Shown here in pieces: positions 1,343-51,621 of a stretch of DNA of 64,000 nt. The translations under genes were made by a program, and so were the position numbers. The notes beneath the pieces were generated by a model. It had not been told where the DNA came from. It was given only the letters and a program-made list of their open reading frames with translations, and ran no database searches. Every line of letters starts with the position of its first letter. Within the stretch, counting starts at the first letter, position 1. This stretch comes from Miscanthus floridulus (taxonomy: Eukaryota > Streptophyta > Magnoliopsida > Poales > Poaceae). Location: contig NC_089584.1 in assembly GCF_019320115.1 (NCBI RefSeq), positions 56,540,852 to 56,604,851 on the forward strand, in the 5' to 3' direction.

Positions 1343-2165
1343 GACCGCCCCCCAAAAGGATGGGACCCTACTAATCTACATCGCAGCGACCAACTAGGTT
1401 GTTAGCACCTGCCATCATCATTGAGTGAGAAGAGGCCTAGCCATGCATACAAAGTCGAGCGCCCAGTCTAACTTCATTAGCAAGGTCTTAAGTGAGTCTA
1501 AGACTAGCTAGCCGCAACTCCAAAAGCTACTATACACCATCTTGTCACATCCCAGAAGCTCCTCCACTACTTCAATGCCTACCACATAACGGTAGTCATA
1601 GACTACCATCTCAGGTACATTCTCCACAATAAGGAAGCCAATGGCTACATCATCAAATGGGTGGTCAAGCTAGGCACCTATGCCACTGATTTTAGGCTCC
1701 GCCACACTGATCAAGTCACAAGCACTCGACTGATTTCATCATCCGGGTGGACGGATATGCAGACTCCTATCTCAGGTCGACCACCCTCGAGCACTAGACC
1801 ATGTACTTCGATGGATCTCTCAACCTTGACTGTGCTAGGGTAGGCATATATTTCATCTCACCATAAGGGGATAAGCTTCGCTATGTCCTTTGCCTACACT
1901 TCCCAACATCCAATAAAACCACTGAATATGAAGCGGTGCTTTATGGTCTCTGTATAGCTATCGAGCTTAGCATTAAATGCCTCTAGGTGTATAGTGACTC
2001 TGTACTCATAATCAATCAGCTCAACAAAGACTGGAATTGCACCAACAAGAAGATGTACATTTACTACACCACGATAAGAAAATTAGAAGACAAGTTCTAT
2101 GGCATCGAATACCACCACATCGTCTAGGCTAAGCAGCTGATGAGCTATCAAAGATAGGATCAACC
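1343..2165 (+). pseudogene. pol: E1 pol, RNase H and second (Tat-type) RNase H, decayed
   Basis: Directly after the TRIM the E1 frame resumes with the MTAPQKDGTLLIYIAATN motif of a gypsy RNase H (1341-1394). It is followed by HAYKVERPV and, near 1600-1690, HNKEANGYIIKWVVKLGT. A second RNase H begins at about 1797 with MYFDGSLNL and includes NKTTEYEAVLYGLCIAIEL and VYSDSVLIINQLNKDWNC at about 1915-2040, which is the extra RNase H found in the Tat lineage. Several TAG stops stand where Gln or Trp is expected (for example near 1395 and 1986), and there are frameshifts near 1730-1800. It is not translatable as one protein. Confidence 0.82.
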
Positions 2166-2379
2166 TAGGCTAACATTCTAGCCAGAGTGTTCATCTAGGA
2201 CCTTGTAGCTCCTTCCATCAAGCAGGAACAAGAATCCATTGAAGAAAAACCACCTGTTGAGCAGATAGTTGCAATGGCCCTTGGTCCTAGCAGCGATTGG
2301 AGACAACCTTTCATCAGGTATCTAACCACTGTAGACATCCTAGCTGACAACATATAGAGAGAACACCTTACCCACCATA

Positions 2380-3453
2380 GTAAGCACTATGTCCTCGTTG
2401 ATGGGAAGTTGTATCATAGAAACGCTAAAGGTGAGCTACTACTAAAGTGTGTCTCCATGGAAGAAGGCGAGAAGTTACTCAACGAGATCCACTGCTGGCA
2501 CATGTTGAAGCCCTTGTTTGCCAGTGTGAGAACTGCAAGTTCTTTGCTAAACAAATCCACTTCTAGGCTCATGTCTTGCAAATGATCCCTGTGTTGTGGC
2601 CCTCTGCATGTTGGGGACTGGATATGATTGGACAATTCAAGCCTACACTAGGAGGTTTATGCTGGGTGTATGTCTGCATTGACAAATTCTCTACGTGGAT
2701 CGCATACAAACCCCTAGTCTATGCTACAACAAAGAAGGTAGCTGAGCTACTTGATGACATCATCCACCAGTTTGGTCTGCCGAATAGCATCATCACTGAC
2801 CTTGGGTCCATGTTCACCAGCAGTGACTTCTAGGATTTCTACGACAAAAGATGCGTCTCAGTCAAGTATGTCTCCGTGGCACACCCAAGGGCCAATAGCT
2901 AAGTCGAGCGCGCCAACGGCATGATCCTAGATCCATTAAAGAAATGACTCTACGAGAAGGAACAGAAGCACCCAAGAAAATGGCTCAAGGAACTACCGGC
3001 CGTTGTCTAGGGACTAAGGACCTAGCCTAGTCTTAACATTGACATCTCCCTATACTATATGGTTTTTGGCTCTAAGGCTATATTGCCTGCTGATGTGCCT
3101 TCTGAGCTCCTAGGGTAGAGAACTATAATGAGGAGAACTCCATCTAGGCTTGGCTTGTTGAACTAGATAGCCTAGAAGAGGAACATCTAGTCACCTGTGT
3201 TTGGATGGCAAAATACCTCAACGTCCTATGCAAATACTACAACCACAATGTCAATGACCAATTCTTCATGGTCCGAGATTTAGTACTCCACAGGAAACAG
3301 AAGATAGATGGGATGCACAAGCTCTCCTCACCTTGGGAAGGCCCCCTTCATCGTCAAGGTGGTTACCCAACCCGATTCCCATAGACTATGTGACATGGAC
3401 AAGAGGGATGTCCCAAATTCTTGGCCCATCGACCTACTTAGACGTTTCTACCC
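2380..3453 (+). pseudogene. pol: E1 pol, integrase (decayed)
   Basis: Reads as a Tat-type integrase: the N-terminal part has KLYHRNAKGELLLKCVS (about 2407-2457). The core includes CWGLDMIGQFKPTLGG at 2606-2653 and IDKFSTWIAYKPLV at about 2678-2720, then HQFGLPNSIITDLGS near 2766-2810. The YVSVAHPRAN motif is at about 2867-2897 and ERANGMILD at about 2906-2932. The C-terminal end reads PWEGP near 3329 and WPIDLLRRFYP at 3423-3455, the usual end of pol in this lineage. TAG stops replace Trp or Gln at several places (for example 2831-2833 and 2900). No chromodomain follows, as expected for Tat. The frame is broken, so this is a pseudogene. Confidence 0.83.
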
Positions 3454-4430
3454 TTAAGCATTCACTCCAAAAGATATGTACCTTTAATATTTGAGCATTC
3501 AATAAAGAGTTTTACACTGATCTCTCCATATTGTTCTCTCCATGCTGAGTGCTTCTAATTCTATGCTCAATGTCTTAAAGATGATATGCCACCTACGTTC
3601 CATGCAAATACTTGAACAAACACGTTGAAGCTCAGACGCCTCCAGAGTCGACCCTATCTCTGACCTCTCCCTACACGTGCATGAGCGTTCGTCCTCTACA
3701 TCATGGGTGGTCGGCAATGGTTCCATAGTGATGCCCTATTTCTTCCCACACTGCACATGGTCCCTGTGCCATGCAGTCACGGATAATAGGCCTAGCTAAG
3801 GCTGGGGACTTAGCTATACACTTCTGTTTGGATAGTTTATATCAAATATAAACACAAACATATAGTAACTGCATGTGCTCCAAAAACATTGCCAGATATT
3901 CAACAAGAGTTTTTTTTCTAAAAACTCTACCTGAGCACTACTCTCCCACTCACCAAACAGCTTCAACATCTTTCGGCCAACCTCTTTGCCGACTCCTCTG
4001 CGTCGTCCTCTAGCTTAGGTGATTTTATCCATGTTCGTGCCCTACGCATATCCACTCACCACCCACTAGAGATCCACCAAAGGATAATGAGACTTTAGCT
4101 ATGTGAGTGCGTGGACAATGGCTCCATGGGTCATGCTACAGCATGAACTCCTTGAAGTCCATCCACACCAGTCCGACAACGATCCACGACCGATCGGTGC
4201 GGCCTACCACCGGGCAGTCAGTCCTCCCTTGGGATGCTCTAGATGGCACATTCTAGCATAGGCTAGATCCCATGATCATCAGTCTCTAGCTTATCATCTT
4301 GAGTCTTTACCTACTCCATGAGCACTTGGAATTATGCTTGAGACTAATGTCGATACTATGCAAATGACACAGCTATATGTTGAACACATGCCTCAGGCCA
4401 CACAAGTTAAAACTACATAAAAACACTCAC
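3454..4430. other. E1 post-pol non-coding region
   Basis: Between the end of integrase and the antisense ORF I see no supported gene. Short ORFs on either strand (for example 3499-3726 on the - strand) match nothing I know. A run of T and A near 3910-3925 and several TAG-rich stretches suggest decayed untranslated sequence of the Tat element. Confidence 0.6.
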
Positions 4431-14567: not shown

Positions 14568-14572
14568 CTATG
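14568..14572. repeat. E4 target-site duplication, left copy (CTATG)
   Basis: CTATG is repeated exactly at 30942-30946, immediately outside the other end of E4. Confidence 0.9.
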
Positions 14573-17500
14573 TGTAACACCCTAGGTGTTTGGCTTCCAC
14601 AAAATTGCATTTCATCTCATAAACATATGCATCATCCATGTCACCATGCCATTATTACTAAAACATACATATGCAACTTTCGCAAATTCTGTTGTTTCAT
14701 ACTTGATTGCTTATGAATGGTAGTAGTGCAACATGTGAATGTAACATGAGTTTCTCATACCTTGAAACATGGCAACATGGTAGGAATGTGGCAAGTTAAG
14801 CTTGCAACAAAAGTAATGCAACATGTGAAACATGGAATTGCAACAATTGAGTGAATTGATTGTTTTATGCTTCATCACATGTGATCATTACAAATTGGTA
14901 TAACAATTGTCTAAAGTGGTTGATCATGGTCTAATACACCTTAACTACACTTAGGGTAATTGTTTGGACATTGTTCATGTAGATCAAAATGACAAAATTG
15001 CCCTTAAGTGGAGGTTTGACTTGAAATGACCCCTAGAGTGCCACTATTTGACTGATTCAAAAGACCAACTTAGAGACTTTGCATGGCTGTGCACTCTTTA
15101 CCAAAGTTGTAGCTAATTTATCAAGGAACAAAAGTTGTTTGATGATCATCTCATGAAAAAGGATAGAACATGCTCAAACATGGCCCACAAGTCAGAATTC
15201 CATGCTGATTTCACACTTGGAAAAGATTCTAAGTCCTAACTGTATTTTCAGTTTGATTGAGCCACCTTTGGCTTGATGTAACTTCTGATCCATGGCGAAT
15301 TAGATGATGGTCCTTGAAAAGAAATTGTAGATGGATGGTAGACCTACATTTTTCATGTACACAGTTTTTGAATTGGATCAATCGTTTAGCCGTATTGACA
15401 CGTTGAAGTCGCGCTGTCAGTCATAGTCATCAAACTCTGAATCGAAATTTCAGAAAATCGTCAGTGCTCACTGTGGCCGACCGATGTAGGAGCTGCTCGC
15501 CATGTGGTGCACTTGAAATGACCCCTAGAGTGCCACTATTTGACTGATTCAAAAGACCAACTTAGAGACTTTGCATGGCTGTGCACTCTTTACCAAAGTT
15601 GTAGCTAATTTATCAAGGAACAAAAGTTGTTTGATGATCATCTCATGAAAAAGGATAGAACATGCTCAAACATGGCCCACAAGTCAGAATTCCATGCTGA
15701 TTTCACACTTGGAAAAGATTCTAAGTCCTAACTGTATTTTCAGTTTGATTGAGCCACCTTTGGCTTGATGTAACTTACACCTTAACTACACTTAGGGTAA
15801 TTGTTTGGACATTGTTCATGTAGATCAAAATGACAAAATTGCCCTTAAGTGGAGGTTTGACTTGAAATGACCCCTAGAGTGCCACTATTTGACTGATTCA
15901 AAAGACCAACTTAGAGACTTTGCATGGCTGTGCACTCTTTACCAAAGTTGTAGCTAATTTATCAAGGAACAAAAGTTGTTTGATGATCATCTCATGAAAA
16001 AGGATAGAACATGCTCAAACATGGCCCACAAGTCAGAATTCCATGCTGATTTCACACTTGGAAAAGATTCTAAGTCCTAACTGTATTTTCAGTTTGATTG
16101 AGCCACCTTTGGCTTGATGTAACTTCTGATCCATGGCGAATTAGATGATGGTCCTTGAAAAGAAATTGTAGATGGATGGTAGACCTACATTTTTCATGTA
16201 CACAGTTTTTGAATTGGATCAATCGTTTAGCCGTATTGACACGTTGAAGTCGCGCTGTCAGTCATAGTCATCAAACTCTGAATCGAAATTTCAGAAAATC
16301 GTCAGTGCTCACTGTGGCCGACCGATGTAGGAGCTGCTCGCCATGTGGTGCACATGCTCTGCCGATGCCACCACGTCGCGCGTCTGCGCTCTAGAAGAAC
16401 GCCAATGCCTGCTCGATGCACTCGCCTGCTCCATTTGCTTCTCCTTCGCCTTCACCGCGCGCAGCACCGAGCCGCTGCAGCTCCACCACTGCCGGCAGAG
16501 CTTCGCCCTTGCCTAGCTCATGCCCTTTGCAAAAATGTGTTGCCTAGTTTGCCCAGAGCCTCGCCGTGATCCCCTCTACCACCTCCACCGTTCAATCGAG
16601 TCAATTGAGTCTTGGTGAGCGGGTGTTCGTCAATTCTTCCACCGCCGCCATGGCTGACCTCGCCGGAGTTGGCGCTCCATGCGGCCAACTGTCCTCACGC
16701 CCTTGCCATCCCTTCTCTCCCTTGCACTAGGTGATGTGGATGCTACTGATGCTCATAGGGTCAACCGATAGGGCCAGGACACAATAGTCTCGCCGGAGCC
16801 GGCCATGCCGTGGCCGTGCGCCGCCATGGTCGTCACCACCCCTAGTAGCCGCAGCAATAGCATCGATTGAGGGCACTGCTAGATGCGCACGGATGAGGTG
16901 AACATCGTAGTACTGCTGGACTCGCTGGAGGAGTCACCGGCGACAAGCTTTGCCGCCACCCTTTTCTTCCTCCCCTGTATCTCTCACTGACGCGCGGGCC
17001 CCTTTTGTCAGTCGTCGATGCTGAGGCGGGAGCCAGCCTGGGCTGCGCTGTTCTGGGCCACGCTAGCGTCGCTTGCGCATGCGCTGTGGGCCACCGAATC
17101 TATTCGGGCCGGCCCTAGCAAGTAGAGTTAGGATTCAAATTCATTTTTGGTTTTATTCTTTTCATAGATTTGTGTATAGATTCAAAAATATGTATCTCCT
17201 AGTTGGTAGCTTCAAATGATGTGGTTCCAATTTTGCTGAGTTCATGATAATGTCTAGTTTATATTAAAAATATGAGTTATGCCATGTTCTGTTATGAAAA
17301 TGGGAGTTTCTATTTATCTCTTTTAATCATGCAAGAAATAGGAGTAATTATATCTTTTTCTATGTAGCTCCAAATGGCATGAAATTTTTATGGTGTATTG
17401 CTCATATCACGAATACCTTGTAGTTAAATTTTTATATATTTTGGACACTATATGTAGGAGATAGAAAATTCTCTTGTTTGCATGGATGGATCTTGTGTGA

Positions 17501-20099
17501 ATTTTCATAATTTTTCTATAGATCCAGTAAGGGTAAAATTTGGTGAGTGCTGTTCTTATGCTAGAATGATACTAGGAAAAATAAGAAATCTATTGCTTGA
17601 CACTTTTCAATAGGGTTTCCTAATTATGCTCAAAATAGACATGCCACCTGTTATTTTGGATACAGCAAGTTCTGCTTGCCCAATGGCTTTGAAATTTTTA
17701 TGGTAGTCTATGTGAAGCATGAGATAGCTACTAGAATTTTTGTAGATTTTTCTGAATAGTTTTACTATATATTGCTTTAATCACCTAATTAACTAAATAA
17801 ATTTGAAAAGGATATTAAATAATTTATTTAGAAGTTGGCACTATACTTTCTAATGTTTCTCTAGTATGCAAAACATGTTGGTAAACTTGGTTTGGTCCAA
17901 TTATGCTTTTGCATCATCATTAAATAATTAAGTTAGTAACCCTGTCATTCTGGACAGATTCTAGGTTTACTGAAATTCGAATAGGTTAACGTAAGAATCA
18001 TGCTTTGATGTTTACAAATGATTTGTAGAGAATTTCATAAGCTTTCCAGAATGTCCTCTTGCAAGTCATTTGAATTTATAGAACTCTGGTTATGATTGAA
18101 TTAAGGAACTACTCGTTGCATGTAAAACCTTAACTTTGATTTAAGTATGCCTTTACTATTTCTAAGTTGTGGTAATGTTCCTAGGTGTTAGGCCTTTAAC
18201 TGAAGATGAGCACCATTATCTTAGGTTATGCAAGTTAGGTAAGTAGATCTCGTTCTTCAAGTTTAGTAGATACATGTTTTAAAGTGATTTGAATAGAGCT
18301 ATTCTAAATCGGTAAACGAGTGTCCAGTGATGTTTTCGTTAAACATTTACTGTGGATCATTCATCATGACCATCATGTCATTCCTTATGCATCCATGATA
18401 TTTATCTTGTGCATCGGCATGCAATAGGTGTACCAGAGGGTGTGACACTGCTGGAATTCGAAGGAACGGAGCGAGCAGCAGCAGCCGACACCGGAGGTTC
18501 AGGAGGTGCAGCCTTCAGGAGAAGTGCCAGACGAGGTCACCAGTTGAGTGCCCGGATCACCGTCCAGTGCAACTTTGTGAAAGGCTAGCCCCGGAGCATA
18601 TTAAGCCTCCTAATTTCCTGAAATGCAGTTAAAGTATTATTGTTACATATATATATTGTTGCATTAAGTTTAGGTGTTGGATGCAAACACTTACTGCATT
18701 GGTTATCCAATCCCTTGTCCTAGATATTGATACCCTGAATCCCATGTAGCTTAGGCTCGTGTAGTGCTTAGCCCTGCTTAAACACGGTAGAAGTCAGGTG
18801 ATTTCCTGTCACCTGCGAGATATAGGAAGATACATATGGCACGGTTGGCTATATTTGCTATCAGTGGAAAAGAACCAGTCTTAATTTGAAATGAAGACCT
18901 GGACGGAGGCTTGCCGGTTTGCTAGTGACTCCGTCTGTGTCGATTAAGGACTGAATCTTGGAGCCTTTCCTAGTTCATGTTGAACGCATGCCTCTCTCTT
19001 AGTTGGCCGTGTCTGAAGACCGACCATGAAGCCGAGTAGCTCACCTCAGGCCGGGAGTCGATAAGTATAAAGTATGCCTCGGAAGGGAGCCGTAGGCGTG
19101 AGTCCAAGGGCAGGTGATTTAAAAGTCCTGATCGTCCTGGCAGAAGGGTAATCCCTAGAGCGCTGGCGCTGATCGAACCCACGGAATTTGGTTCCTAGTT
19201 GTCCCAAAGGTGACCCATGGCTACCCTTGCTAAGTATGCCAGGGTGAGAGTTAGGAATACCCCCTCAGCTGAGTTGTAATTCGATTCGAGTCACCGTCTC
19301 TCCCTGGTTAGTGAGAACTTGACGGGCTTATCTCCAAAGTAGATACACTAAATAACCTAATGGTTCGGAAATGATGATATGATGATGACAGCCTTATTAT
19401 ACCTGCTATGGTTAATATTGATTGCTCCTAATAAGTGAGTGCTCTAGTACAGGTGCTAATCTAGTGGACAGGTAAATGATGATAAGCTTAATGCTAAGTT
19501 TAAATTGGTTACTATATTCATAAGCTCTTTTTATGCAACTTGTGTCAAGCTAGCCCACCTCATAAGCCTTGCATGATCCTTGGTGTCTTTTATTTCTGGT
19601 TTTGACAGGGTAAGTCTAGCTGAGTACCTTCTCAGTACTCAGGGTTTATCTCCCACCTGTTGCAGATGACCAGTTCTACTTTGGTTGCTGCAAGTACTGC
19701 CTTCTCCTAGCTAGGGGATGAAGACTAGACCATTGGGCGTAGGTCTCTACTAGTTCTCGTACCTGATGATGCTTTTGTGGGACATGACTCAGACTTGGCA
19801 ATGTATTTGAAAACTATGAAGTTATGTACTAAACTATGTTGCTTCCGCACATTGAACTTGGTTTGTAATATTTTATTTGAACTCTGATGGATGTAATCCG
19901 AATGCTACTTGTGAAATGTTGTAACGAATGATTGTGTTGTGTTGAATCACTATGGTCCTTGGTTTGTATGTCGAAAGTTGGTTGAAATCCTTCGTGATTT
20001 CTGGACTACCGGGATTTTGGGAGCTTAAGTACAGGAATTTGATCACTTCAGTGATTGTTTTTGTACTTACGTTCTTATGATTTGGTCGGTTCAGTTATA
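14573..20099 (+). repeat. E4 5' LTR (5,527 bp, with an internal 841-bp duplication)
   Basis: Begins TGTAACACCCTAGGTGTTTGG and ends GGTTCAGTTATA before the primer-binding site. It is 856 bp longer than the 3' LTR because a block at 14936-16352 is partly triplicated (listed separately). The rest is collinear with 26271-30941, with few substitutions. It holds a GC-rich part (about 16320-17120), then a long AT-rich part, and near the end the CGGTAGAAGTCAGGTGATTT segment shared with other chromovirus LTRs here. The small ORFs in the GC-rich part also occur in the other LTR and look non-coding. Confidence 0.92.
14936..16352 (+). repeat. Nested segmental duplication in the E4 5' LTR (order U-V-W-V-U-V-W)
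   Basis: Three segments can be defined: U (84 bp, 14936-15019), V (265 bp, 15020-15284) and W (227 bp, 15285-15511). The LTR reads U V W, then V again (15512-15776), then U V W again (15777-16352). The 3' LTR has U V W only once (from about 26634). The V copies appear identical to each other, while the 3' LTR copy has small differences, so the event happened after insertion or in the immediate parent copy. An assembly artefact cannot be excluded from sequence alone. Confidence 0.9.
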
Positions 20100-20101
20100 G
20101 C

Positions 20102-20113
20102 TGGCATCAGAGC
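20102..20113 (+). other. E4 primer-binding site
   Basis: TGGCATCAGAGC two bases after the LTR end. It differs from the standard initiator tRNA-Met complement TGGTATCAGAGC by one base (T to C). A related variant, TAGCATCAGAGC, is found in E6. Confidence 0.85.
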
Positions 20114-20853
20114 AAGATTCGACACTAAACATGTCATTTGTGTATTTAAAACAAAAGTATTTGTGAAAATCCTAAATTAAATACTAAGTATTACCAGTGG
20201 TCATATCCCTTATGCCCAAATAAGGACTATTAGGTGGCTTATTAAAGTACTAACTTGGGGTTTCCTACTTGTTTCTGTTTCGTCATCCATACAGCGTGCT
20301 ATGGTATGGATGCCATCCGCTTGGGTGGTAATGTATGGATCAAATACCTCTACGCTCTGGTAAGTGGGAGTTGTGAGAGCATGACCGTCCAATCATCGGT
20401 CTAGGGGAGAGTAGTTGTGGTTGCTCGCATACTTACATGTTCGATCATGTATCTATGAGAGTACTTAAATGTGGGTATCTCTAACGGGTAGCTATGATAC
20501 TAGAATATATACATCGGGGGATGTATGTATGAAAGTATTTAGTTCACTACTTACTTTACATGCATTTTGGGAAATTATTGGGCTGAAATGAAATTTTCTG
20601 CAGGTACACTAACAACGTATCGTTGTAGATCGACTAGCTACCGTATACGAGAGAACGTATGTATGCCACCGTATATTTCGCTAGCCTTGAAATTTTTCTA
20701 GGTTTGTGAGGACGTACGAATCGTGCATGCATCATGTTCAAGCATACATGGCATTTCTTGCATTACTCTCTCCTTTAAAATTGATGGTCCCGACTAATTA
20801 AATTTCGTATCCCTTAAATGATTCTCCCCTTACGTTGCAACTTTTTGCTACAG
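20114..20853. other. E4 leader between primer-binding site and orf0
   Basis: Untranslated leader with no supported gene. It ends in the pyrimidine-rich stretch CTTTTTGCTACAG directly before the orf0 ATG, which looks like an intron acceptor. Palindromic-looking GTATACGAGAGAACGTATG lies near 20643. Confidence 0.55.
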
Positions 20854-21450
20854 ATGGCATGCACGAAACTCACTGCTCGCAAGTCCGCTAGAGGCAGGGC
20901 GCCTTGTCACCGTTTAGCTCCTTGTGAGCCCCGTCCTGAGCCTACTAAGGCAGAAAGGCTGAGGGCAAAGCTGGCCCGGGTGACTGCTGAGAGGAATGCG
21001 GCTCAGCACCGTTTGGAGCAAGTAACACAGGAATGGGACCAAGAGACCCTGGAGGTTTAGAGGTTGATAGTTGCTCACTACAACTATGAACGCATGTTGA
21101 TTCATGTGATGAATCAACAGAATGAAGCCTGGCATGAAGAGAATGTGTTGAGAGCGCAACAGGTGGAGCTAGAGCAGCAGTTGGCAGTTGCCAAAGAGTA
21201 TAATGACCATCTCCATGAGGAGGTTCACCTGTTACATAATCAGCTTCACCCTCTCCTGCCACCTAATGATGAGAATGACAATGAGGATGAGATGGGCTCT
21301 GGTGTCATCATGGCTGAAGGTGATGATGACATGGAGGTCAATGGACCTGAGGACGTTCCACCTGATGAGGAGGAAGATGAGGAGTTAGAGCTTGCTAGTT
21401 ATGAAGATGGAGGAGAGATCTTCGACACTGACTCCGAGGACGATGCGTAG
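20854..21450 (+). pseudogene. E4 orf0: histone H3-tail-like N-terminus, coiled coil and acidic tail
   Basis: The predicted protein is about 198 residues, with one in-frame TAG at 21058-21060 (after residue 68). The ATG at 20854 was chosen because ACAGATGGC is shared with orf0 of E3 and E6; an in-frame ATG at 20818 would add 12 residues. After the Met it reads ACTKLTARKS, against ARTKQTARKS of histone H3. T3, K4, T6, A7, R8, K9, S10, G13, A15, P16, L20 and A21 agree with H3 numbering. Residues about 30-140 are rich in Glu, Leu, Arg and Gln with heptad character (coiled coil). A VHLLHNQLHPLLPP segment follows, and the last 50 residues are dominated by Asp and Glu. The coiled-coil end and acidic tail match E6 orf0; the N-terminus does not. 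Function is unknown; a chromatin-reader decoy is an inference. Confidence 0.75.
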
Positions 21451-21893
21451 TTTAGCTTACTACTTAGCTAATGCACTAGAGCTAATCTTTTGTTGATCCT
21501 CATGCATGAACGAGTAGCTTTGTAATAAGTTAATCGTTGGGATGTAATATCGAACCCTATGTTACCCTTGATGTAAGTTTGGAACCTCTATGGCTTGGAT
21601 GTAACCTATCGAATGAGTTATGCTCCACGTATGTGAGCTTTTGACGAATTCCGTCTTTACGGTCTATAGATCTCGTTGTTGGTTAAGTTCATCGCATTAC
21701 TGTGTCAATTGACACGCTTGATGAGTTGTGTGATTGTGATGAATGATTGTGCCTCTATTGATTATATAAATGCATTCTCTCCAATGGAATCAGTTTGGCA
21801 TAATTATACAATTCATCTACAAAAGTTTCCACATCGTCAGTGCTCATTGGCTATATCTTTGCAGATGGCTTATAACCTTCATCACGTCGTAGC
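21451..21893. other. E4 spacer between orf0 and gag
   Basis: No supported gene. It contains ATATCTTTGCAG at 21854-21865 just before an ATG, again like a splice acceptor, but that ATG (21866) is not in the gag frame. Confidence 0.5.
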
Positions 21894-22886
21894 ATGGGAG
21901 ATGAGGAACAACCACCTCCTCCACCGCCCACACCAGCTGAGCTAATGCAGACAGTTGTTGAAAGTTAGCGCATGCTAGCTAAGGCGATGCGCCATATGGC
22001 TAACCGTGATGACTGACATGTCTGCCAGGGACCCGAGCCGAACCTGTATAGCAGCTTTAAGGACTTCATGGACATAAAGCCTCCTATCTTTCATGAGGCA
22101 GAAGAACCATTACAAGCTAATGAATGGTTGAGCATGATAGAGCAAAGATTTGTATTGCTCCGATTGACAGAAGGTATGAAGGCTTCGTATGCAGGACACC
22201 AGCTCTAAGGCCCTGCAGGCATCTGGTAGACCCATCATAGGACCACCTTCCCTGCTAACGTTGAGATAGTTTGGGACTAGTTCCAGACAGCCTTCCGGGG
22301 ACACTTTATCCCTCCTAGTCTCATGGCCATTAAGCATACCAAGTTTATGAAGCTAACCCAAGGCAACAAGAGTCTTAATGAATACCTCCTAGGCATTCAA
22401 CAACCTAGCAAGGTATGCTCCTAGAGTTTGTTGATACTGACGCCAAAAGAATAGCTAGCTTCAAGAGGGGACTTTCCCCTAAACTGATGAAGTCTATGGG
22501 CAACTGTAAGTGTGTCACCTTCAATGAGTTTATCAGTGACACCCTGACTCAGGAGAACAATGATAAGATATATGCTACTTCCAAGACCCGTAAAAGAAAC
22601 TTTGAGGCAGGTGCTTCTCAGTCCAAAGCACCAGTGGTATCCAAGACCCAGTATCATCCACCCAATGCTAATGTTCGGTACTGCCCACCTCAGAAGAAGA
22701 ACCAAGCTAAAACTAGTTTCCGCAAGGGGTACACAATTTCCTTGCCAAAGAATACCTCTAGGCAGGGTAGCTCTAATGTCCCGCCAGCAAACAGGCCATG
22801 CTAGGAACTGTAATCAGCCTGGTCACTAGGCTAATAAGTGTCCCTATCCTTCCAAGCAGAATGCTCAGGGAAACGTCCGTCAGGGG
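21894..22886 (+). pseudogene. gag: E4 gag (capsid/nucleocapsid), broken
   Basis: The start is placed at ATG 21894, followed by a Pro-rich N-terminus (GDEEQPPPPPPTP). The retrotransposon gag core reads FHEAEEPLQANEWLSMIEQR at 22090-22149 and later FRGHFIPPSLMAIKHTKFMK (about 22296-22355), then LNEYL. Stops lie at about 21967, 22012, 22207 and 22228, and a frameshift near 22395. After that ORF 22415-22804 carries FVDTDAKRIASFKRGLSPKL and a basic C-terminal part. The zinc knuckle at about 22802-22843 reads RNCNQPGH, a TAG, then ANKC: the first Cys is replaced by Ala. Gag packages the RNA; this copy is unlikely to do so by itself. Confidence 0.83.
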
Positions 22887-23480
22887 CATGTTCACTACAC
22901 TACTATGGAGGAAATTTCTGCTGGTGAAGTGGTCACCGCTGGTAAGTTCCTTGTTAATGATCACCCTGTAAGTTGTGCTCTTTGATTTGGGTGCTTCGCA
23001 TTCCTTTGTGAGTTCTACTTTTGTGTCTATGCATAAGATGAATGTGATTACAATTGTTAAGGGTGGTTATTGTATTAGTGCTGCTGGAAATAATATCCTT
23101 ACTAACCAAGTAGTTAAAGATGTAAAGATTGAGATTGGGGATCAAGAGTTCCTTATGGATCTTGTAGTTCTACCGGGGGTAGGAATTGATGTAATCCTAG
23201 GAATGAAGTGGATGAGTGGGAATGGAGTGTTCATCGATACATCAACCCGTGTGGTAATGTTGAGGGATCCTGTGGATAAAAAGGGTTTTCTAGTGCAGTT
23301 ACCTCATGATATCTCTATCCACAATACAGCCAATGCTACCCTAGCTAAAGCCATTGAAGATATACCGGTTGTCTGTGAGTTTCCAGATGTCTTCCCTGAT
23401 GACTTGCCTGGATTACCTCCGGACCGTGATGTAGAATTCAAGATAGAACTCAGTTCCGAGTATGGCTCCTATTTCTCAAA
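22887..23480 (+). pseudogene. pol: E4 protease region of pol
   Basis: Reads VHYTTMEEISAGEVVTAGKF at 22888-22947, then shifts frame near 22972 and continues as ORF 22975-23490. The active-site motif is [11 protein letters not shown], where the family has D-S-G-A: the catalytic Asp is kept but the Ser is Leu. [11 protein letters not shown] at about 23185-23217 is the second conserved loop (ILGMxWL/M), and the end of the domain reads [20 protein letters not shown] (23380-23439), the classic linker to reverse transcriptase. A frameshift near 23455-23465 moves into the next frame. Confidence 0.85.
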
Positions 23481-24330
23481 GGCCCCATAGAATGCCGCCC
23501 AATGAGTTGGTTGAGCTGAAGAGTCAGTTGAATGAGCTATTAAAGAAAGGTTTGATTCGGCCTAGTTCTTCTCCTTGGGGTTGCCCGGCTATATTTGTGA
23601 AGAAGAAGGATGAGTCTCTACGCATGTGCATGGATTATCGCCCCCTTAATGCTGTTACCATCAAGAACAAATACCCTCTTCCTCGCATCGATATTCTGTT
23701 TGATCAGCTCTCCAAAGCTAAGGTATTCTCCAAGATCAATTTGAGGTCTGGTTACCATCAGATCAAAATTCGTCCTGAAGATATACCTAAGACAACTTTC
23801 TCTACTCGTTATGGCTTGTTCGAATACCTTGTCATGTCCTTTGGGTTGACAAATGCTCCGGCACACTTTATGTACCTGATGAATTCAGTATTCATGCCGG
23901 AACTGGACAAGTTCGTTGTCGTGTTCATTGATGATATCCTTGTTTATTCTCTGAATAAAGAAGAGCATGCTGAACATCTGAGAATTGTTTTAACTCGGTT
24001 ACATGACAACCAGCTTTACGCTAAGTTCAGCAAGTGTGAATTCTGGTTGAACAAGATACCTTTCCTAGGTCATGTGTTATCTGGTGATGGAATTTCGGTT
24101 GACCCTACTAAGGTGCAAGAAGTCCTAGAGTGGAAGGCACCTACTACGGTCATAGAAGTCCAAAGTTTCCTGGGTTTGGCTGGCTACTATCATCGCTTTA
24201 TCCCGGATTTCTCAAAAATCGCCAAGCCCATGACTCGACTACTTCAAAAAGATGAGAAGTTTGTGTGGACTCCGAAGTGTGAAGAGGCTTTCCACACTTT
24301 ACGGACCTTACTAACCTCTGCTCCTGTATT
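23462..24330 (+). pseudogene. pol: E4 reverse transcriptase
   Basis: Open over its whole length. It contains [20 protein letters not shown] at 23611-23670, [20 protein letters not shown] at 23740-23799 and [20 protein letters not shown] from 23797. The catalytic motif FIDDILVYS at 23924-23950 has both Asp codons present. KFSKCEFWL and [15 protein letters not shown] follow. The Ile codon before the first Asp is ATT, so no CpG overlaps it. This is a gypsy reverse transcriptase of the Tekay chromovirus type that copies element RNA into DNA. The domain itself looks functional; its connection to gag and protease is broken by frameshifts. Confidence 0.9.
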
Positions 24331-24720
24331 GGCACAACCTGACATCGAGAAGCCTTTTGATGTCTACTGTGATGCATATGGCACCGGTTTGGGGTGTGTT
24401 CTTATGCAGGAGGGCCGGGTCATTGCTTATGCTTCGCGCTAGCTTCGAAAACATGAAGTCAACTATCCTACCCATGACTTAGAGCTAGCCGCGGTTGTTC
24501 ATGCCCTAAAGATTTGGAGACATTACTTGCTGGGTAATGTGTGCAACATCTATACTGACCATAAAAGTCTCAAGTACATCTTTACTCAACTCGAGTTGAA
24601 CATGCATCAACGACGATGGTTAGAATTGATCAAAGACTACAACCTTCAAGTGCACTACCATCCTGGCAAGGCAAATGTGGTTGCTGATGCCTTAAGCATA
24701 AAGGCCCATTGCAATTCCTT
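24331..24720 (+). pseudogene. pol: E4 RNase H
   Basis: Follows reverse transcriptase in the same frame: [20 protein letters not shown] (24351-24410), [10 protein letters not shown], then a TAG at 24440-24442 where the family has Gln. Reading continues in frame with [45 protein letters not shown] and [20 protein letters not shown] (24620-24680). The family motif CDAS reads CDAY. It degrades RNA in the RNA/DNA hybrid. One stop codon interrupts it. Confidence 0.87.
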
Positions 24721-24779
24721 AGTTAGTGAAGACTTTCATCTAGCACACCTCCTTCATCCTGTAGTACTCCACAATATCA

Positions 24780-25882
24780 CTGTGGATTGCTCTCTTAGAA
24801 GTCGAATTATCGAACTCCAGAAGACTGATGTGGGTGTGTTTCATATCAAGCGAAAGATGAAAGATCAAGAGACCAAGCACTTTAGGGTCGATGATAAAGG
24901 AATTCTCTGGTTTAATGATAGGCTTGTGGTACCCAAAGACAAAGAACTTAGAAATCAAATTATGGCTGAAGCCCATTCTTCTAAATTGTCCATCCATCCT
25001 AGTAGCAGTAAAATGTATCAAGATCTCAAGCTGTATTATTGGTGGACCAAGATGAAGAAAGAAATCATAGCCTACATGGCAAGGTGCGATAACTATTGCA
25101 GAGTCAAGGCTATTCACATGAGGCCTAGAGTATTGCAGCCACTCTCTATTCCTGGCTGGAAGTGGGAAGAAATTAGCATGGATTTTATTGTTGGACTACC
25201 CACTACCAAAAAGGGTTGTGATTCCATCTGGGTTATCGTAGATCGTCTAACTAAATCTGCTCACTTTATTCCGGTCAAGTATACCTATCACCCTCACAAT
25301 TATGCTGAGATTTACTTTTCAACAAGTGGTACGTCTCCATGGTGTACCCAAATCCATTGTTTCTGATAGAGGACCGCTAGTTCACAGGCTCGCTTTTGGG
25401 AGTGCTTACATCAGAATCTTGGCACTCATCTAATCCGTAGTTCTGCCTATCATCCGCAAACATCAGGACATACTGAGCGTGTTAATCAAGTTCTTGAAGA
25501 CATGCTTAGAGCTTGTCTTATCTCTTGCAAAGGCTCTTGGGAGGACTGGTTACCTCTCGCTGAATTCTCTTATAACAACAGTTATCAAGAGAGTATCAAA
25601 ATGGCTCCTTTTGAAGCTCTTTATGGCCGCAAGTGTAGAACTCCTTTGAACTGGGTGGAACCCGGAGAAAGAAGATTCTATGGTATTGACTTTGTAAAAG
25701 AAGCCGAAGAGCAAGTCCGAACTATACAGAAGAATATGACTGCCGCTCAGGCTAGACAAAAGAGCTATGCTGATAAGAGAAGAAAACCTATTAAGTTTGA
25801 AGTAGGTGATCATGTTTATTTGAAGGTATCCCCTATGAAAGGAGTAAAACGTTTTGGAATCAAAAGGAAGCTTGAGCCTTGA
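24780..25882 (+). pseudogene. pol: E4 integrase
   Basis: The zinc-binding HHCC domain is visible: [20 protein letters not shown], then [20 protein letters not shown] at about 25042-25101. The catalytic core starts [20 protein letters not shown] (25178-25237). The second Asp region (SDRGP) is at about 25360-25375, after a frameshift near 25325-25340 and beside stops. The Glu region (HTERVNQVLEDMLRAC) is at about 25468-25515. GSWEDWLPLAEFSYNNSYQ and FEALYGRKCRTPLNWVEPGE follow. A TGA at 25880 replaces the Arg of the usual LxPRYVGPY motif. Integrase inserts the DNA copy into the host chromosome. Confidence 0.87.
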
Positions 25883-26275
25883 TATGTTGGACCTTACCGC
25901 ATTATCGAGAAAAGTGGAAGAGTAGCATATAAACTCGATCTACCACGTGAAATGGGAGCTATATTCCCGGTATTCCACGTGTCCCAGCTAAAGAAGTGTC
26001 TTCGTATTCCCGAGGAAAGAATAGCAACGAGGAGAATCGAATTGAAATCTGATCTTTCTTATGAGGAGAAGCCCATGCAGGTTCTGGATACTCAAGAACA
26101 AGTGACTCGTACGCGAGTAGTTAAGTTATACAAGGTAGTTTGGAGTAATCATTGTGAACGGGATGCAACATGGGAGCGGGAAGATTATCTAAAGGAAAAT
26201 TATCCGGCTTTCTATATTAAATGGTACGCTTTCCAAATCTCAGGACAAGATTTTTCTAAGGGGGGAGGGCTGTAA
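25883..26275 (+). pseudogene. pol: E4 pol C-terminus with chromodomain-like tail
   Basis: In frame after the TGA at 25880: YVGPYRIIEKSGRVAYKLDL, GAIFPVFHVSQLKKCLRIPE (25955-26014), then VVKLYKVVWSNHCERDATWE (26119-26178) and REDYLKENYPAF. The last part is the variant chromodomain-like tail of Tekay-type integrases, which in chromoviruses is thought to steer integration toward particular chromatin. The stop codon TAA (26273-26275) is supplied by the first bases of the 3' LTR (TGTAA), so the reading frame runs through the polypurine tract. Confidence 0.85.
26257..26270 (+). other. E4 polypurine tract
   Basis: TAAGGGGGGAGGGC directly before TGTAACACC of the 3' LTR. E6 has a close match (AAGGGGAGGGGC) at its own junction. 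Confidence 0.9.
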
Positions 26276-29200
26276 CACCCTAGGTGTTTGGCTTCCACAA
26301 AATTGCATTTCATCTCATAAACATATGCATCATCCATGTCACCATGCCATTATTACTGAAACATACATATGCAACATTCGCAAATTCTGTTATTTCATAC
26401 TTGATTGCTTATGAATGGTAGTAGTGCAACATGTGAATGTAACATGAGTTTCTCATACCTTGAAACATGGCAACATGGTAGGAATGTGGCAAGTTAAGCT
26501 TGCAACAAAAGTAATGCAACATGTGAAACATGGAATTGCAACAATTGAGTGAATTGATTGTTTTATGCTTCATCACATGTGATCATTACAAATTGGTATA
26601 ACAATTGTGTAAAGTGGTTGATCATGGTCTAATACACCTTAACTACACTTAGGGTAATTGTTTGGACATTGTTCATGTAGATCAAAATGACAAAATTGCC
26701 CTTAAGTGGAGGTTTGACTTGAAATGACCCCTAGAGTGCCACTATTTGACTAATTCAAAAGACCAACTTAGAGACTATGCATGGCTGTGCACTCTTTACC
26801 AAAGTTGTAGCTAATTTATCAAGGAACAAAAGTTGTTTGATGATCATCTCATGAAAAAGGATAGAACATGCTCAAACATGGCCCACAAGTCAGAATTCCA
26901 TGCTGATTTCACACTTGGAAAAGATTCTAAGTCCTAACTGTATTTTCAGTTTGATTGAGCCACCTTTGGCTTGATGTAACTTCTGATCCATGGCGAATTA
27001 GATGATGGTCCTTGAAAATAAATTGTAGATGGATGGTAGACCTACATTTTTCATGTACACAGTTTTTGAATTGGATCAATCGTTTAGCCGTATCGACACG
27101 TTGAAGTCGCGCTGTCAGTCATAGTCATCAAACTCTGAATCGAAATTTCAGAAAATCGTCAATGCTCACTGTGGCCGACCGATGTAGGAGCTGCTCGCCG
27201 CGTGGTGCACATGCTCTGCCGATGCCACCACATCGCGCGTCTGCGCTCTAGAAGAATGCCAATGCCTGCTCGATGCACTCGCCTGCTCCATTTGCTTCTC
27301 CTTCGCCTTCACCGCGTGCAGCGCCGAGCCGCTGCAGCTCCACCACTGCCGGCAGAGCTTCGCCCTCGCCTAGCTCATGCCCCTTTGCAAAAATGTGTTT
27401 CCTAGTTTGCCCAGAGCCTCGCCGTGATCCCCTCTACCACCTCCACCGTTCAATCGAGTCAATTGAGTCTTGGTAAGCGGGTGTTCGTCAATTCTTCCAC
27501 CGCCGCCATGGCTGACCTCATCGGAGTTGGCGCTCCATGCGGCCAACTATCCTCACGCCCTTGCCATCCCTTCTCTCCCTTGCGCTAGGTGCTGTGGACG
27601 CTACTGATGCTCGTAGGGTCAACCGATAGGGCCAGGACGCAGTAGTCTCGCCGGAGCCGGCCATGTCGTGGCCGTGTGCCGCCATGGTCGTCACCACCCC
27701 TAGTAGCCGCAGCAATAGCATTGATTGAGGGCACCGCTAGATGCGCACAGATGAGGTGAACATCGTAGTACTACTAGACTCGCCGGAGGAGTCACCGGCG
27801 ACGAGCTTTGCCGCCGCCCTTTTCTTCCTCCCCTGTTTCTCTCGCTGACGCGCGGGCCCCTTTTGTCAGTCGTCGATGCTGAGGCGGGAGCAAGCCTGGG
27901 CTGCGCCATTCTAGGCCACACTGGCATCACTTGCGCATGCGCTGTGGGCCGCCGGATCTGTTCGGGCTGGCCCAACAAGTAGAGTTAGGATTCAAATTCA
28001 TTTTTGGTTTTATTCTTTTCACAGATTTGTGTATAGATTCAAAAATATGTATCTCCTAGTTGGTAGCTTCAAATGATGTGGTTCCAATTTTGCTGAGTTC
28101 ATGATAATGTCTAGTTTATACTAAAAATATGAGTTGTGCCATGTTCTGTTATGAAAATGGGAGTTTCTATTTATCCCTTTTAATCATGCAAGAAATAGGG
28201 GTAATTATATCTTTTTCTATGTAGCTCCAAATGGCATGAAATTTTTATGGTGTATTGCTCATATCATGAGTAGCTTGTAGTTAAATTTTTATATATTTTG
28301 GACACTGGATGTAGGAGATAGAAAATTCTCTTGTTTGCATGGATGGATCTTGTGTGAATTTTCATAATTTTTCTATAGATCCAGTAAGGGTAAAATTTGG
28401 TGAGTGCTGTTCTTATGCTAGAATGATACTAGGAAAAATAAGAAATCTGTTGCTTGACACTTTTCAATAGGGTTTCCTAATTATGCTCAAAATAGACATG
28501 CCACCTATTATTTTGGATACAGCAAGTTATGCTTGCCCAATGGCTTTGAAATTTTTATGGTAGTCTATGTGAAGCATGAGATAGCTACTGGAATTTTTGT
28601 AGATATTTCTGAATAGTTTTACTATATATTGCTTTAATCACCTAATTAACTAAATAAATTTGAAAAGGATATTAAATAATTTATTTAGAAGTTGGCACTA
28701 TACTTTCTAATGTTTCTCTAGTATGCAAAACATGTTGGTAAACTTGGTTTGGTCCAATTATGCTTTTGCATCATCATTAAATAATTAAGTTAGTAACCCT
28801 ATCATTCTGGACAGATTCTAGGTTTACTAAATTCGATTGGTTAACGTAAGAATCATGCTTTGATGTTTACAAATGATTTGTAGAGAATTTCATAAGCTTT
28901 CCAGAATGTCCTCTTCCAAGTCATTTGAATTTATAGAACTCTGGTTATGATTGAATTAAGGAACTACTCGTTGCATGTAAAACCTTAACTTTGATTTAAG
29001 TATGCCTTTACTATTTCTAAGTTGTGGTAATGTTCCTAGGTGTTAGGCCTTTAACTGAAGATGAGCACCTTTATCTTAGGTTATGCAAGTTAGGTAAGTA
29101 GATCTCGTTCTTCAAGTTAATGTAGATACATGTTTTAAAGTGATTTGAATAGAGCTATTCTAAATCGGTAAACGAGTGTCCAGTGATGTTTTTGTTAAAC

Positions 29201-30941
29201 ATTTACTGTGGTTCATTCATCATGAGCATCATGTCATTCCTATGCATCCATGATATTTATCTTGTGCATTGGCATGCAATAGGTGTACCAGGAGGGTGTG
29301 ACACTACTGGAATTTCGAGGAACCGAGCGAGCAGCAGCAGCCGACACCAGGAGGTTCAGGAGGTGCAGCCTTCAGGAGAAGTGCTAGACGAGGTCGCCGT
29401 TGAGTGCCCGGATCACCGTTCTGTGCAACTTTGTGAAAGGCAAGCCTCGGAGCATGTTAAGCCTCCTAATTTCCGAAATGTAGTTAAAGTATTATTGTTA
29501 CATATATATATTGTTGCATTAAGTTTAGGTGTTGGATGCAAACACTTGCTGCATTGGTTATCCAATCCTTATCTAGATATTGATACCATGAATCCCATGT
29601 AGCTTAGGCTCGTGTAGTGCTTAGCCCTGCTTAAACACGGTAGAAGTCAGGTGATTTCCTGTCACCTGCGAGATATAGGAAGATACATATGGCACGTTTG
29701 GCTATATTTGCTATCGTGGAAAAGAACCAGTCTTAATTTGAAATGAAGACTGGATGGAGGCTTGCCGGTTTGCAGTGACTCCGTCTGTGTCGATTAAGGA
29801 CTGAATCTTGGAGCCTTTCCTGTTCATGTTGAATGCATGCCTCTCTCTTAGTTGGCCATGTCTGAAGACCGACCACGAAGCCGAGTAGCTCACCTCAGGC
29901 TAGGAGTCGATAAGTATAAAGTACGCCTCGGAAGGGAGCCATAGGCGTGAGTCCAAGGGTAGGTGATTTAAAAGTCCTGATTGTCCTGGTAGAAGGGTAA
30001 TCCCTGAGAGCGCTGGCGCTGATCGAACCCGCGAATTTGGTTCCTGAGTTGTCCCAAAGGTGACCCACGGCTACCCTTGCTAAGTATGCCAGGGTGAGAG
30101 TTAGGAATACCCCCTCAGCTGAGTTGTAATTCGATTCGAGTCGCCGTCTCTCTCGGTTAGTGAGAACTTGACGGGCTTATCTCCAAAGTAGATACACTAA
30201 ATAACCTAATGGTTTGGAAATGATGATATGATGATGACAGCCTTATTATACCTGCTATGGTTAATATTGATTGCTCCTAATAAGTGAGTGCTCTAGTACA
30301 GGTGCTAATCTAGTGGACAGGTAAATGATGATAAGCTTGATGCTAAGTTTAAATTGGTTACTATATTCATAAGCTCTTTTATGCAACTGTGTCAAGCTAG
30401 CCCACCTCATAAGCCTTGCATGATCCTTGGTGTCTTTTATTTCTAGTTTTGATGGGTAAGTCTAGCTGAGTACCTTCTCGTACTTAGGGTTTATCTCCCA
30501 CCTGTTGCAGATGACCAGTTCTACTTTGGTTGCTGCAAGTACTGCCTTCTCCTAGCTAGGGATGAAGACTAGACCATTGGGCGCGGTCTCTACTAGTTCT
30601 CGTACCTGATGATGCTTTTGTGGGACATGACTCAGACTTGGCAATGTATTTGAAAACTATGAAGTTATGTACTAAACTATGTTGCTTCCACACATTCGAA
30701 CTTGGTTTGTAATATTTTATTTGATCTCTGATGGATGTAATCTGAATGCTACTTATGAAATGTTGTAACGAATGATGTGTTGTGTTGAATCACTATGGTC
30801 TTGGTTTGTATGTTGAAAGTTGGTTGAAATCCTTCATGATTTCTAGACTACCGGGATTATGGGAGCTTAAGTATAGGAATTTGATCACTTTAGTGATTGT
30901 TTTTGTACTTATGTTCTTATGATTTGGTCGGTTCTATTACA
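26271..30941 (+). repeat. E4 3' LTR (4,671 bp)
   Basis: Begins TGTAACACCCTAGGTGTTTGG and ends CGGTTCTATTACA beside CTATG (30942-30946). It is collinear with the 5' LTR apart from the single U-V-W block and small indels. Contains the same GC-rich and AT-rich parts and no supported gene. Confidence 0.92.
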
Positions 30942-30946
30942 CTATG

Positions 30947-50587: not shown

Positions 50588-51621
50588 TCATCTCCTTCCT
50601 CCAGGCTCCACCTCTTCCTCTTCCTCGTCCTCATCATCATCTTCTTCCATATTTGGACCATCTTCTTCCCCATCCAAGATTGGGTTCAACTGGTTGTTCA
50701 AATAGTGCACTTCTTGCTGAAGGTTCATTACTTGAAGTTGAGCCTGTGCAAGCTGCTGACAGTAAGCCCCTTTCAGCACAGGTTCTAGGGCATTACTCAT
50801 GTCGCGGTGCCTATCTCGCTCTATCCTTATTATAGCGACATGGTTTTCTGCTACATCACACTGACGTCTAGCTATGGACACCTTCGCACAGGCGGTCTCC
50901 AACTGCTCCTGTAGTCCTACAAGTACTGCTTGATCATTAGCTCTAGCTTCTTGAGCTGCTACCCTCTGCTGATCCACTTGGTCCATTTGGGCATGAAGAG
51001 TGCCCAAAGCTACATAGGCTTGGTCAGATTCCCATCGAGCTTTACTTGCGGCTTTCTTTTGCTTGCGCACACACTTCTTGAGCTTATGCTGTGTGGCTTC
51101 AGCTCTCATGAGTTTGTCCATGCAGGTGGTGTATGATTCCTGCCAGAAATCCCTGGTGTCTTGGCGTGCACAAAACATCTTCATCACCAGTAAACGTTGC
51201 ACTCATGGAGGGACTAGAGCTATTTGCTCGCTCATCCTGATCTCTGATCAATGCATTTTGGTTGCGTTGTTCCCATATTGTGGTGGACGGATCCACTCAA
51301 GGAAACATACTCGCTGCACTACTAGTAAGTGCATCTCCATGCTGTTGGCAGATTTGCCTCAAAACCTCAAAGGCCACAACTTGGGCAGCCTCCCAAGGAG
51401 TCTTCCCTTCCGATTCTGCCTTCCACTCCTGCCAGAAGGGCGGTTGTGTGCGGGCTAGGTATAGTGAGTCGCACCTCGTACCATGGTTGTCCTTCCAAGT
51501 ACTCTTCAATCCAATGATAAAGGGGCGGTTCATGGTACCCCACAAAGTGCAGCACTCTCCACAATAGGGTAGGTGTTCTAAAAACCATCAGGAAATTCTC
51601 ACATCCAACTGGTCCTGCCAT
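50588..51621 (-). pseudogene. E6 orf0: N-terminal domain, coiled coil and acidic tail
   Basis: Read right to left from ATG 51619-51621, preceded by GGTACAG, again acceptor-like. The N-terminal part reads LLWRVLHFVGYHEPPLYHWI and EEYLEGQPWYEVRLTIP (ORF 51367-51642). After a frameshift the next piece is FWQEWKAESEGKTPWEAAQV then VAFEVLRQICQQHGDALTSS. A third piece follows (VDPSTTIWEQRNQNALIRDQ). Finally ORF 50588-51202 holds a long coiled coil (many Ala, Gln, Glu, Arg) with LQQEVHYLNNQLNPILDGEE and an Asp/Glu-rich end. The end matches orf0 of E4. The N-terminal domain resembles orf0 of E2 and E3 and has no histone-like tail. About 340 residues if frames were joined; function unknown. Confidence 0.75.

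Follow-up and report, generated by a model that had tools for sequence, protein, structure and literature searches.

A histone H3 tail-like head on the orf0 protein of a giant-LTR, Tekay-like retrotransposon family in Miscanthus floridulus

The E4 element and its orf0

In the window, i.e. the whole stretch of 64,000 nucleotides of Miscanthus floridulus DNA that was analysed, an LTR retrotransposon designated E4 carries an additional open reading frame, orf0, upstream of gag, the beginning of which resembles the tail of histone H3. Its features are the following:

14568-14572 and 30942-30946: target duplication of E4, 5 bp, CTATG
14573..30941, + strand: E4, LTR retrotransposon with orf0, Tekay-like
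14573..20099, + strand: 5' LTR, 5527 bp, with an internal duplication inside, end set by eye
20102..20113, + strand: primer binding site, TGGCATCAGAGC
20818..20853, + strand: 12-codon in-frame extension upstream of orf0 (MILPLRCNFLLQ in many relatives)
20854..21450, + strand: orf0 frame, 198 codons plus stop, broken by TAG at 21058-21060 (codon 69)
20854..20925, + strand: H3-tail-like head of orf0, codons 1-24
20947..21255, + strand: predicted coiled coil, one long helix, with limits (residues 32-134) transferred from the relative P0015 (AlphaFold2 on relatives)
21256..21447, + strand: acidic, predicted disordered C-terminal part of orf0
21865..21867, + strand: ATG taken as the presumed gag start, after a second acceptor-like CTTTGCAG
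23462..24442, + strand: reverse transcriptase and start of RNase H (Pfam)
24602..25366, + strand: integrase zinc-binding region (Pfam)
25883..26260, + strand: integrase C-terminus, an SH3-like domain and then a degenerate chromodomain-like tail (Pfam and reading)
26271..30941, + strand: 3' LTR, 4671 bp

Pfam matches in E4 are to RVT_1, RNase H, integrase zinc-binding and Tf2-type SH3 domains, with the reverse transcriptase preceding the integrase as in Ty3/gypsy elements, and the extra open reading frame 5' of gag together with LTRs longer than 3 kb, as in Retrosat2, is the arrangement of Tekay elements with orf0; E4 belongs to a large family of giant-LTR, Tekay-like retrotransposons. The primer binding site is presumably of the initiator Met tRNA type. 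With LTR pieces 96.6, 98.8 and 99.2% identical, the element is young; its reverse transcriptase, RNase H and integrase regions are spread over several broken frames and the window copy looks dead. The 5' LTR exceeds the 3' LTR by about 850 bp owing to the internal duplication, which has related copies at 14935, 15427 and 15776 (within 14573-15776).

In rice, Retrosat2, RIRE3 and RIRE8 likewise have long LTRs and an extra open reading frame before the main one, an orf0 of unknown function (PMC3485330), and Retrosat-2 has been placed in Tekay (PMC6317226). The rice orf0s differ from that of E4 in that enzyme activities were inferred for them and no H3-like head is described, the word "histone" having 0 occurrences in the main text available (PMC3485330); they are set apart here by description, not by sequence.

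Resemblance to histone H3 and its retention among copies

As the initial annotation had claimed, translation at 20854 opens with H3-like residues and begins MACTKLTARKSARGRAPCHRLAP; ungapped and anchored on the Met, 13 of the 21 residues that follow (H3 numbering 1-21) are those of histone H3. A chance resemblance was rejected, or at least weakened, by permutation, by comparison with PDB sequences and by tblastn within the window. When residues 1-23 of orf0 were permuted, none of 500,000 permutations reached the 13 identities of the window copy (maximum 11), and against the 16 identities of the family majority residues 0 of 500,000 were as high (maximum 11). With the H3 tail as tblastn query, the orf0 head was the best place in the 64-kb window, at E 0.002, the next being at E 1.4. 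In phmmer searches of PDB sequences, the 36-residue window peptide gave weak E-values (best 0.017) and 111 matches up to E 10, and the 60 listed among them were all H3 chains or peptides; the intact relative P0015 reached 3.2e-4 with 132 matches, the 60 listed being all H3, H3 variants or H3 peptides, one of them named Cse4. The resemblance of orf0 to the H3 tail is confirmed.

Judging from its relatives, the window orf0 is a decayed member of the family, and copies that have decayed less resemble H3 more closely. When the interrupted frame was used as protein query, with X in place of the stop, 203 hits had E values of 0.01 or less and 120 of them were listed; the N-terminus is present in 30 of these 120, with K4 in 30/30, K9 in 29/30, S10 in 30/30 and K14 replaced by R in 30/30, and the other 90 start later in the protein and speak neither for nor against the head. 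Better-kept relatives have 16 of 21 residues identical to H3, MARTK[R/L]TARKSAGGRAPRHRLAP, as does each of the full-length head-bearing clusters with at least 28 member sequences (P0004, P0005, P0006 and P0015), while a fifth large cluster, P0109, which is cut short, has 14/21. The more divergent homologues P0018 and P0095 also keep the head. Their T11 and Q19 were considered as signs of a more H3-like ancestry, an idea dropped since CpG decay yields both steps, TCC-GCT to TCC-ACT and CGG to CAG. No relative was found in the viral contigs and genome contigs searched.

CpG decay from Arg also accounts for Cys2 and Cys17 of the window copy, and the proposal that both are CpG-type steps is borne out by 38 sister copies, in which the codon of residue 2 is Arg in 28 and TGC in 10, and that of residue 17 is Arg in 26, TGT in 6 and CAT in 6. 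In these 38 copies, the codons of which were listed, each loss at R2, R8, R17, T3 or A15 amounts to a single C-to-T or G-to-A step at CpG.

The genome searched amounts to 2.68 Gb in 19 chromosome-sized contigs (85 to 231 Mb). A 240-base DNA query gave 40 scored matches among 1262 first-look candidates, the P0018 protein 150 scored of 10,424 candidates and the head-free query P0027 150 scored of 10,849, these candidate numbers not being copy numbers. Each of the 150 scored P0018 matches begins at query residue 1 to 4, and the head is present in 30/30 of the loci fetched with this query. From the 150 places scored with P0027, 20 outside the earlier lists were sampled and their upstream DNA was fetched: the head was found in 20/20 of these new copies and the start Met in 19, the defects consisting of replaced first codons in L128, a frame shift just after the head in L120 and a stop inside the head in L132. 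Headless family members, which were to speak against the earlier proposal, were thus looked for in the sampled copies, including by a head-free search, and none was found. One genome copy, L131, has 17/21 identities.

Residue counts were taken over 66 copies, left from 70 loci (L001-L070) once L021 and L034, both shifted in frame within the head, L010, whose frame shifts past codon 52, and L043, which is the place already counted as L005, had been removed. An H3-like peptide with the K4 and K9 context is kept in these relatives, the counts of H3-identical residues, out of 66, being:

A1 64, R2 40, T3 51, K4 66, T6 64, A7 62
R8 56, K9 66, S10 65, G12 56, G13 65, A15 48
P16 66, R17 43, L20 66, A21 66

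Position 5 is L in 47, R in 15, H in 3 and C in 1, and H3 residues are replaced at K14 (R in 64), K18 (H in 65), T22 (P in 66) and K23 (R in 52), K14, K18 and K23 being acetylation sites in H3. In a single copy of the 66, L009, codon 15 encodes Lys at H3 position 14, its AAG being one G-to-A step from the usual AGG.

Origin, constraint and translation start

Host H3 genes were located by a genome search with H3 and ten intron-bearing loci were fetched. In nine of them (L101-L109, which we take to be of H3.3 type), the first coding exon counts exactly 24 codons (72 nt) and ends in AAG with GT next, and the tenth, L110, has one extra base. The likeness of orf0 to H3 stops at codon 22 to 24, near the end of such an exon, and it is this coincidence that suggests exon capture. 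The ATG of L101-L105 comes directly after a T-rich stretch with AG at its end, as in orf0 (CTACAG then ATG).

At the DNA level, 68 heads (L005 entering twice, also as L043) were compared with 37 of 40 H3 loci (L092, L093 and L095 being below the match limit), the 11 loci of the intron class including L098, whose H3 match is continuous, and both L099 and L108, which are one gene; the median best identity to an H3 exon was 48/72 for this class vs. 47 for intronless H3. As to codon sharing, with p values uncorrected for picking the best gene, the best copy (L005 with L101) shares 10/16 codons where 6.1 are expected, 534 of 20,000 draws being as high (p 0.03); four other copies with their best intron-class gene gave 1597 to 4252 of 20,000 (p 0.08-0.21), and the same five copies with their best intronless H3 gene 415 to 1804 of 20,000 (p 0.02-0.09). 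In these five copies, the intron-bearing class is not favoured over intronless H3.

The head would probably descend from a host H3 gene rather than arise by convergence, perhaps by way of an intron-bearing H3 gene and its first coding exon of 24 codons. Capture would be the simplest account of 16 ungapped identities, the DNA comparison being at most weakly suggestive of descent. A basic N-terminus that came to resemble H3 by convergence or chance would suit a DNA likeness to host H3 exons that is barely above the amino-acid expectation, but 16/21 ungapped, Met-anchored identities unmatched in 500,000 permutations and PDB matches that are, as listed, all H3 or H3 variants make it very improbable.

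Regarding constraint, pairwise comparison of the 66 copies gives a pN/pS of 0.68 for head codons 2-22 (0.45 without CpG-type differences), 0.76 for the 16 H3-identical codons (0.64) and 0.45 for orf0 codons 25-58 (0.38). Of 60 resamplings with 25 copies each, 36 gave a non-CpG pN for the head below that of codons 25-58, and in the 38 copies nearest the window pN/pS is 0.72 in the head vs. 0.61 in codons 34-58. No extra constraint on the H3-identical codons was found over the 66 copies, where they are not below the rest of orf0. Neutral evolution of the head had been named as a finding that would undo the earlier proposal; the codons show neither clear neutrality nor any special constraint (0.68/0.45 vs. 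0.45/0.38), and, as far as such ratios tell, orf0 looks constrained as a whole with the H3-like positions not singled out. The K4 and K9 codons are protected because they are without CpG. A count of residues, with non-CpG-type changes in 3/480 cells of H3-identical columns vs. 137/2647 in the coil, had seemed to indicate strong constraint and was rejected because the residues that make up the head are favoured by the changes it lists as CpG-type and the DNA test shows no extra constraint. Besides, nine head codons picked afterwards (pN/pS 0.16) vs. R2, R8 and R17 (7.99) were left unused, both values following from CpG content.

These ratios bear on the idea that the captured H3 fragment merely hitch-hikes in a young amplifying family, without H3-related function. 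The youth of E4 (LTR pieces 96.6-99.2% identical) agrees with it, as do head and H3-identical values that are not low (0.68 and 0.76) and a lower non-CpG head pN in only 36 of 60 resamplings; however, the non-CpG head value of 0.45 lies near the 0.38 of codons 25-58, which fits an orf0 constrained as a whole, and the head is kept in the more divergent P0018 and P0095. We regard such hitch-hiking as unlikely.

The position of the tail within the protein depends on the start. An in-frame ATG lies 12 codons upstream (20818 in the window) in 68/69 copies, 40 of these having been found with a query that includes it, as well as in 30/30 protein-chosen copies and in 17/20 of the head-free sample; since this ATG is nearly universal, the tail may be internal rather than N-terminal. 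The initial annotation had taken a downstream start as a refutation: a candidate alternative start does exist, yet it lies upstream, 12 codons off, and not downstream. The extension has a pN/pS of 0.46 (0.18 without CpG-type differences), as if coding, which would fit translation. Non-CpG diversity at bases -36 to -20 is 0.014 vs. 0.040-0.053 further upstream in 67 copies, and 0.021 vs. 0.032-0.055 in 30 copies chosen without that stretch, and constraint on the extension is possible.

The end of the extension, TTTTTGCTACAG, resembles a 3' splice acceptor and abuts the orf0 ATG; the AG before the H3-like Met is kept in 67/69 copies, and a TAG stands just before this Met in 8/69. CAG before ATG is not special to the head because it also precedes the presumed gag ATG (21857-21869, a perfect acceptor-like CTTTGCAG) and the ATG of an E6-type orf0, in L111. 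Spliced subgenomic mRNAs are possible. Either the H3-like Met would follow a used splice acceptor, or the tail would be preceded by MILPLRCNFLLQ, in which case the tail would lose readers that depend on a free Ala1, though not necessarily K9 readers.

Protein architecture and possible roles

In the AlphaFold2 prediction for P0015 with 17 relatives, residues 1-31 are without secondary structure, a single helix spans residues 32-134 (103 residues, pLDDT mostly >90) and the acidic rest is unstructured; orf0 may dimerise. The earlier description of a head joined to a coiled coil and an acidic region is upheld by this prediction: in contrast to histone H3, in which K14, K18 and K23 are not replaced, the tail of orf0 leads into a long helix and then an acidic end, with no histone fold in the AlphaFold2 prediction and no Pfam histone match. 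Pfam gave nothing above the cut-off on the head-bearing proteins and the E6 N-terminal part, and Foldseek against the PDB returned 1 match only, at E 8.

Another element of the window, E6, provides a related orf0:

50588..51184, - strand: part of E6 orf0, with only the end-of-coil motif common with E4 orf0

Over this motif, E6 orf0 and the E4-type P0015 agree at 13 of 22 positions, with an E value of 2e-6 calculated for one comparison. The frame of the E6-type copy L112 stays open upstream, into a different domain, with MAAPVGCENF and about 150 residues before the coil, and L111 has the same MAAPVGCENF start, with breaks. The N-terminal heads differ between related orf0s, and the claim that E6 differs from E4 in this respect holds in these two copies. 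The E6-type orf0 frames of L111 and L112 reach up to 421 aa.

With regard to function, orf0 could serve as a multivalent bait for host enzymes and readers of free K4 and methylatable K9, candidate targets being SUVH-type methyltransferases and AGDP1- or SHH1-type readers; the bait would blunt silencing of the element or redirect the bound proteins. We put this role forward tentatively, as rather less than probable. In the available text of PMC6208443, AGDP1 contacts A1, R2, K4, A7, R8 and dimethylated K9 of H3, without specific contact to T3, Q5, T6 or S10; the usual residues of the family are those of H3 at every contacted site and, within 1-10, only position 5 differs. This match, seen after the fact, would be in keeping with a bait aimed at readers that take K4 free and K9 methylated; it may also be compatible with other readers, with import or with targeting. 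The K14, K18 and K23 replacements would fit a tail that is not acetylatable there.

Targeting would require that the captured tail, once methylated, bind heterochromatin readers or the chromodomain of the element's own integrase, thereby steering integration intermediates. The chromodomain-like integrase end of E4 and a predicted long helix that suits complexes would agree with this, as would type II chromodomains whose partner is unidentified in the available text of PMC6317226. In the group II chromodomains that Tekay elements have, however, the methyl-lysine cage lacks its first residue and, as a rule, its third according to the accessible part of PMC3350952; at the integrase end of E4, ATWERE can be read (a TWE motif is described there for group II), and the Pfam Chromo match is only E 0.087, below the cut-off. 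The initial suggestion that orf0 might be captured by its own integrase is weakened by both points. The orf0 of E6-type relatives (two copies) furthermore has no H3-like head, and targeting appears quite unlikely.

The tail of H3 is a cargo signal for importins, and the head could accordingly be a nuclear import or nucleic-acid-binding tail that gives orf0 nuclear entry, K4/K9 chemistry being irrelevant. It is indeed basic and predicted disordered, with K14, K18 and K23 mostly replaced by R, H and R; yet any basic stretch would serve, and T6 (64), A7 (62), S10 (65), G13 (65) and P16, L20 and A21 (66 each) are kept in the 66 copies though unneeded, which renders this function improbable.

Histone mimicry by pathogens also proceeds via short motifs of the ARKS type. 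Like orf0, adenovirus protein VII is a parasite protein with a likeness to a histone, resembling histones in what is available of PMC12937675, whereas orf0 differs from pathogen mimics in that some 21 residues align with the H3 tail and the protein, at or close to whose start they lie, is that of a retrotransposon. VANC of Arabidopsis is a transposon-encoded anti-silencing protein; it differs from orf0 in being sequence-specific for its DNA targets, and H3 mimicry is not mentioned in the available text (PMC5735166). No description of an H3 tail in a retrotransposon protein was found in the literature covered, which is narrow, and novelty is provisional.

The best explanation taken as a whole, i.e. 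a family orf0 that joins a copy of the H3 tail to a coiled coil and an acidic end, descends from host H3 and acts as a bait, seems to us evenly balanced between right and wrong. Its most detailed form is rather unlikely to hold at every step: the first H3 coding exon would have been captured and turned into a decoy, with coiled-coil orf0 presenting tails without acetylatable K14, K18 and K23, with K9 methylated and K4 free, titrating or redirecting AGDP1, SHH1 and the SUVH/CMT loops and aiding multiplication of the family.

For the orf0 of these grass elements, to which no obvious function is given in the available text of PMC3485330, the histone-tail head is a concrete lead that can be tested. 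The loss of K14, K18 and K23 with K4 and K9 kept leads to precise predictions for peptide binding and methylation. The head would be an instance of a transposon appropriating part of the same substrate through which the host silences it.
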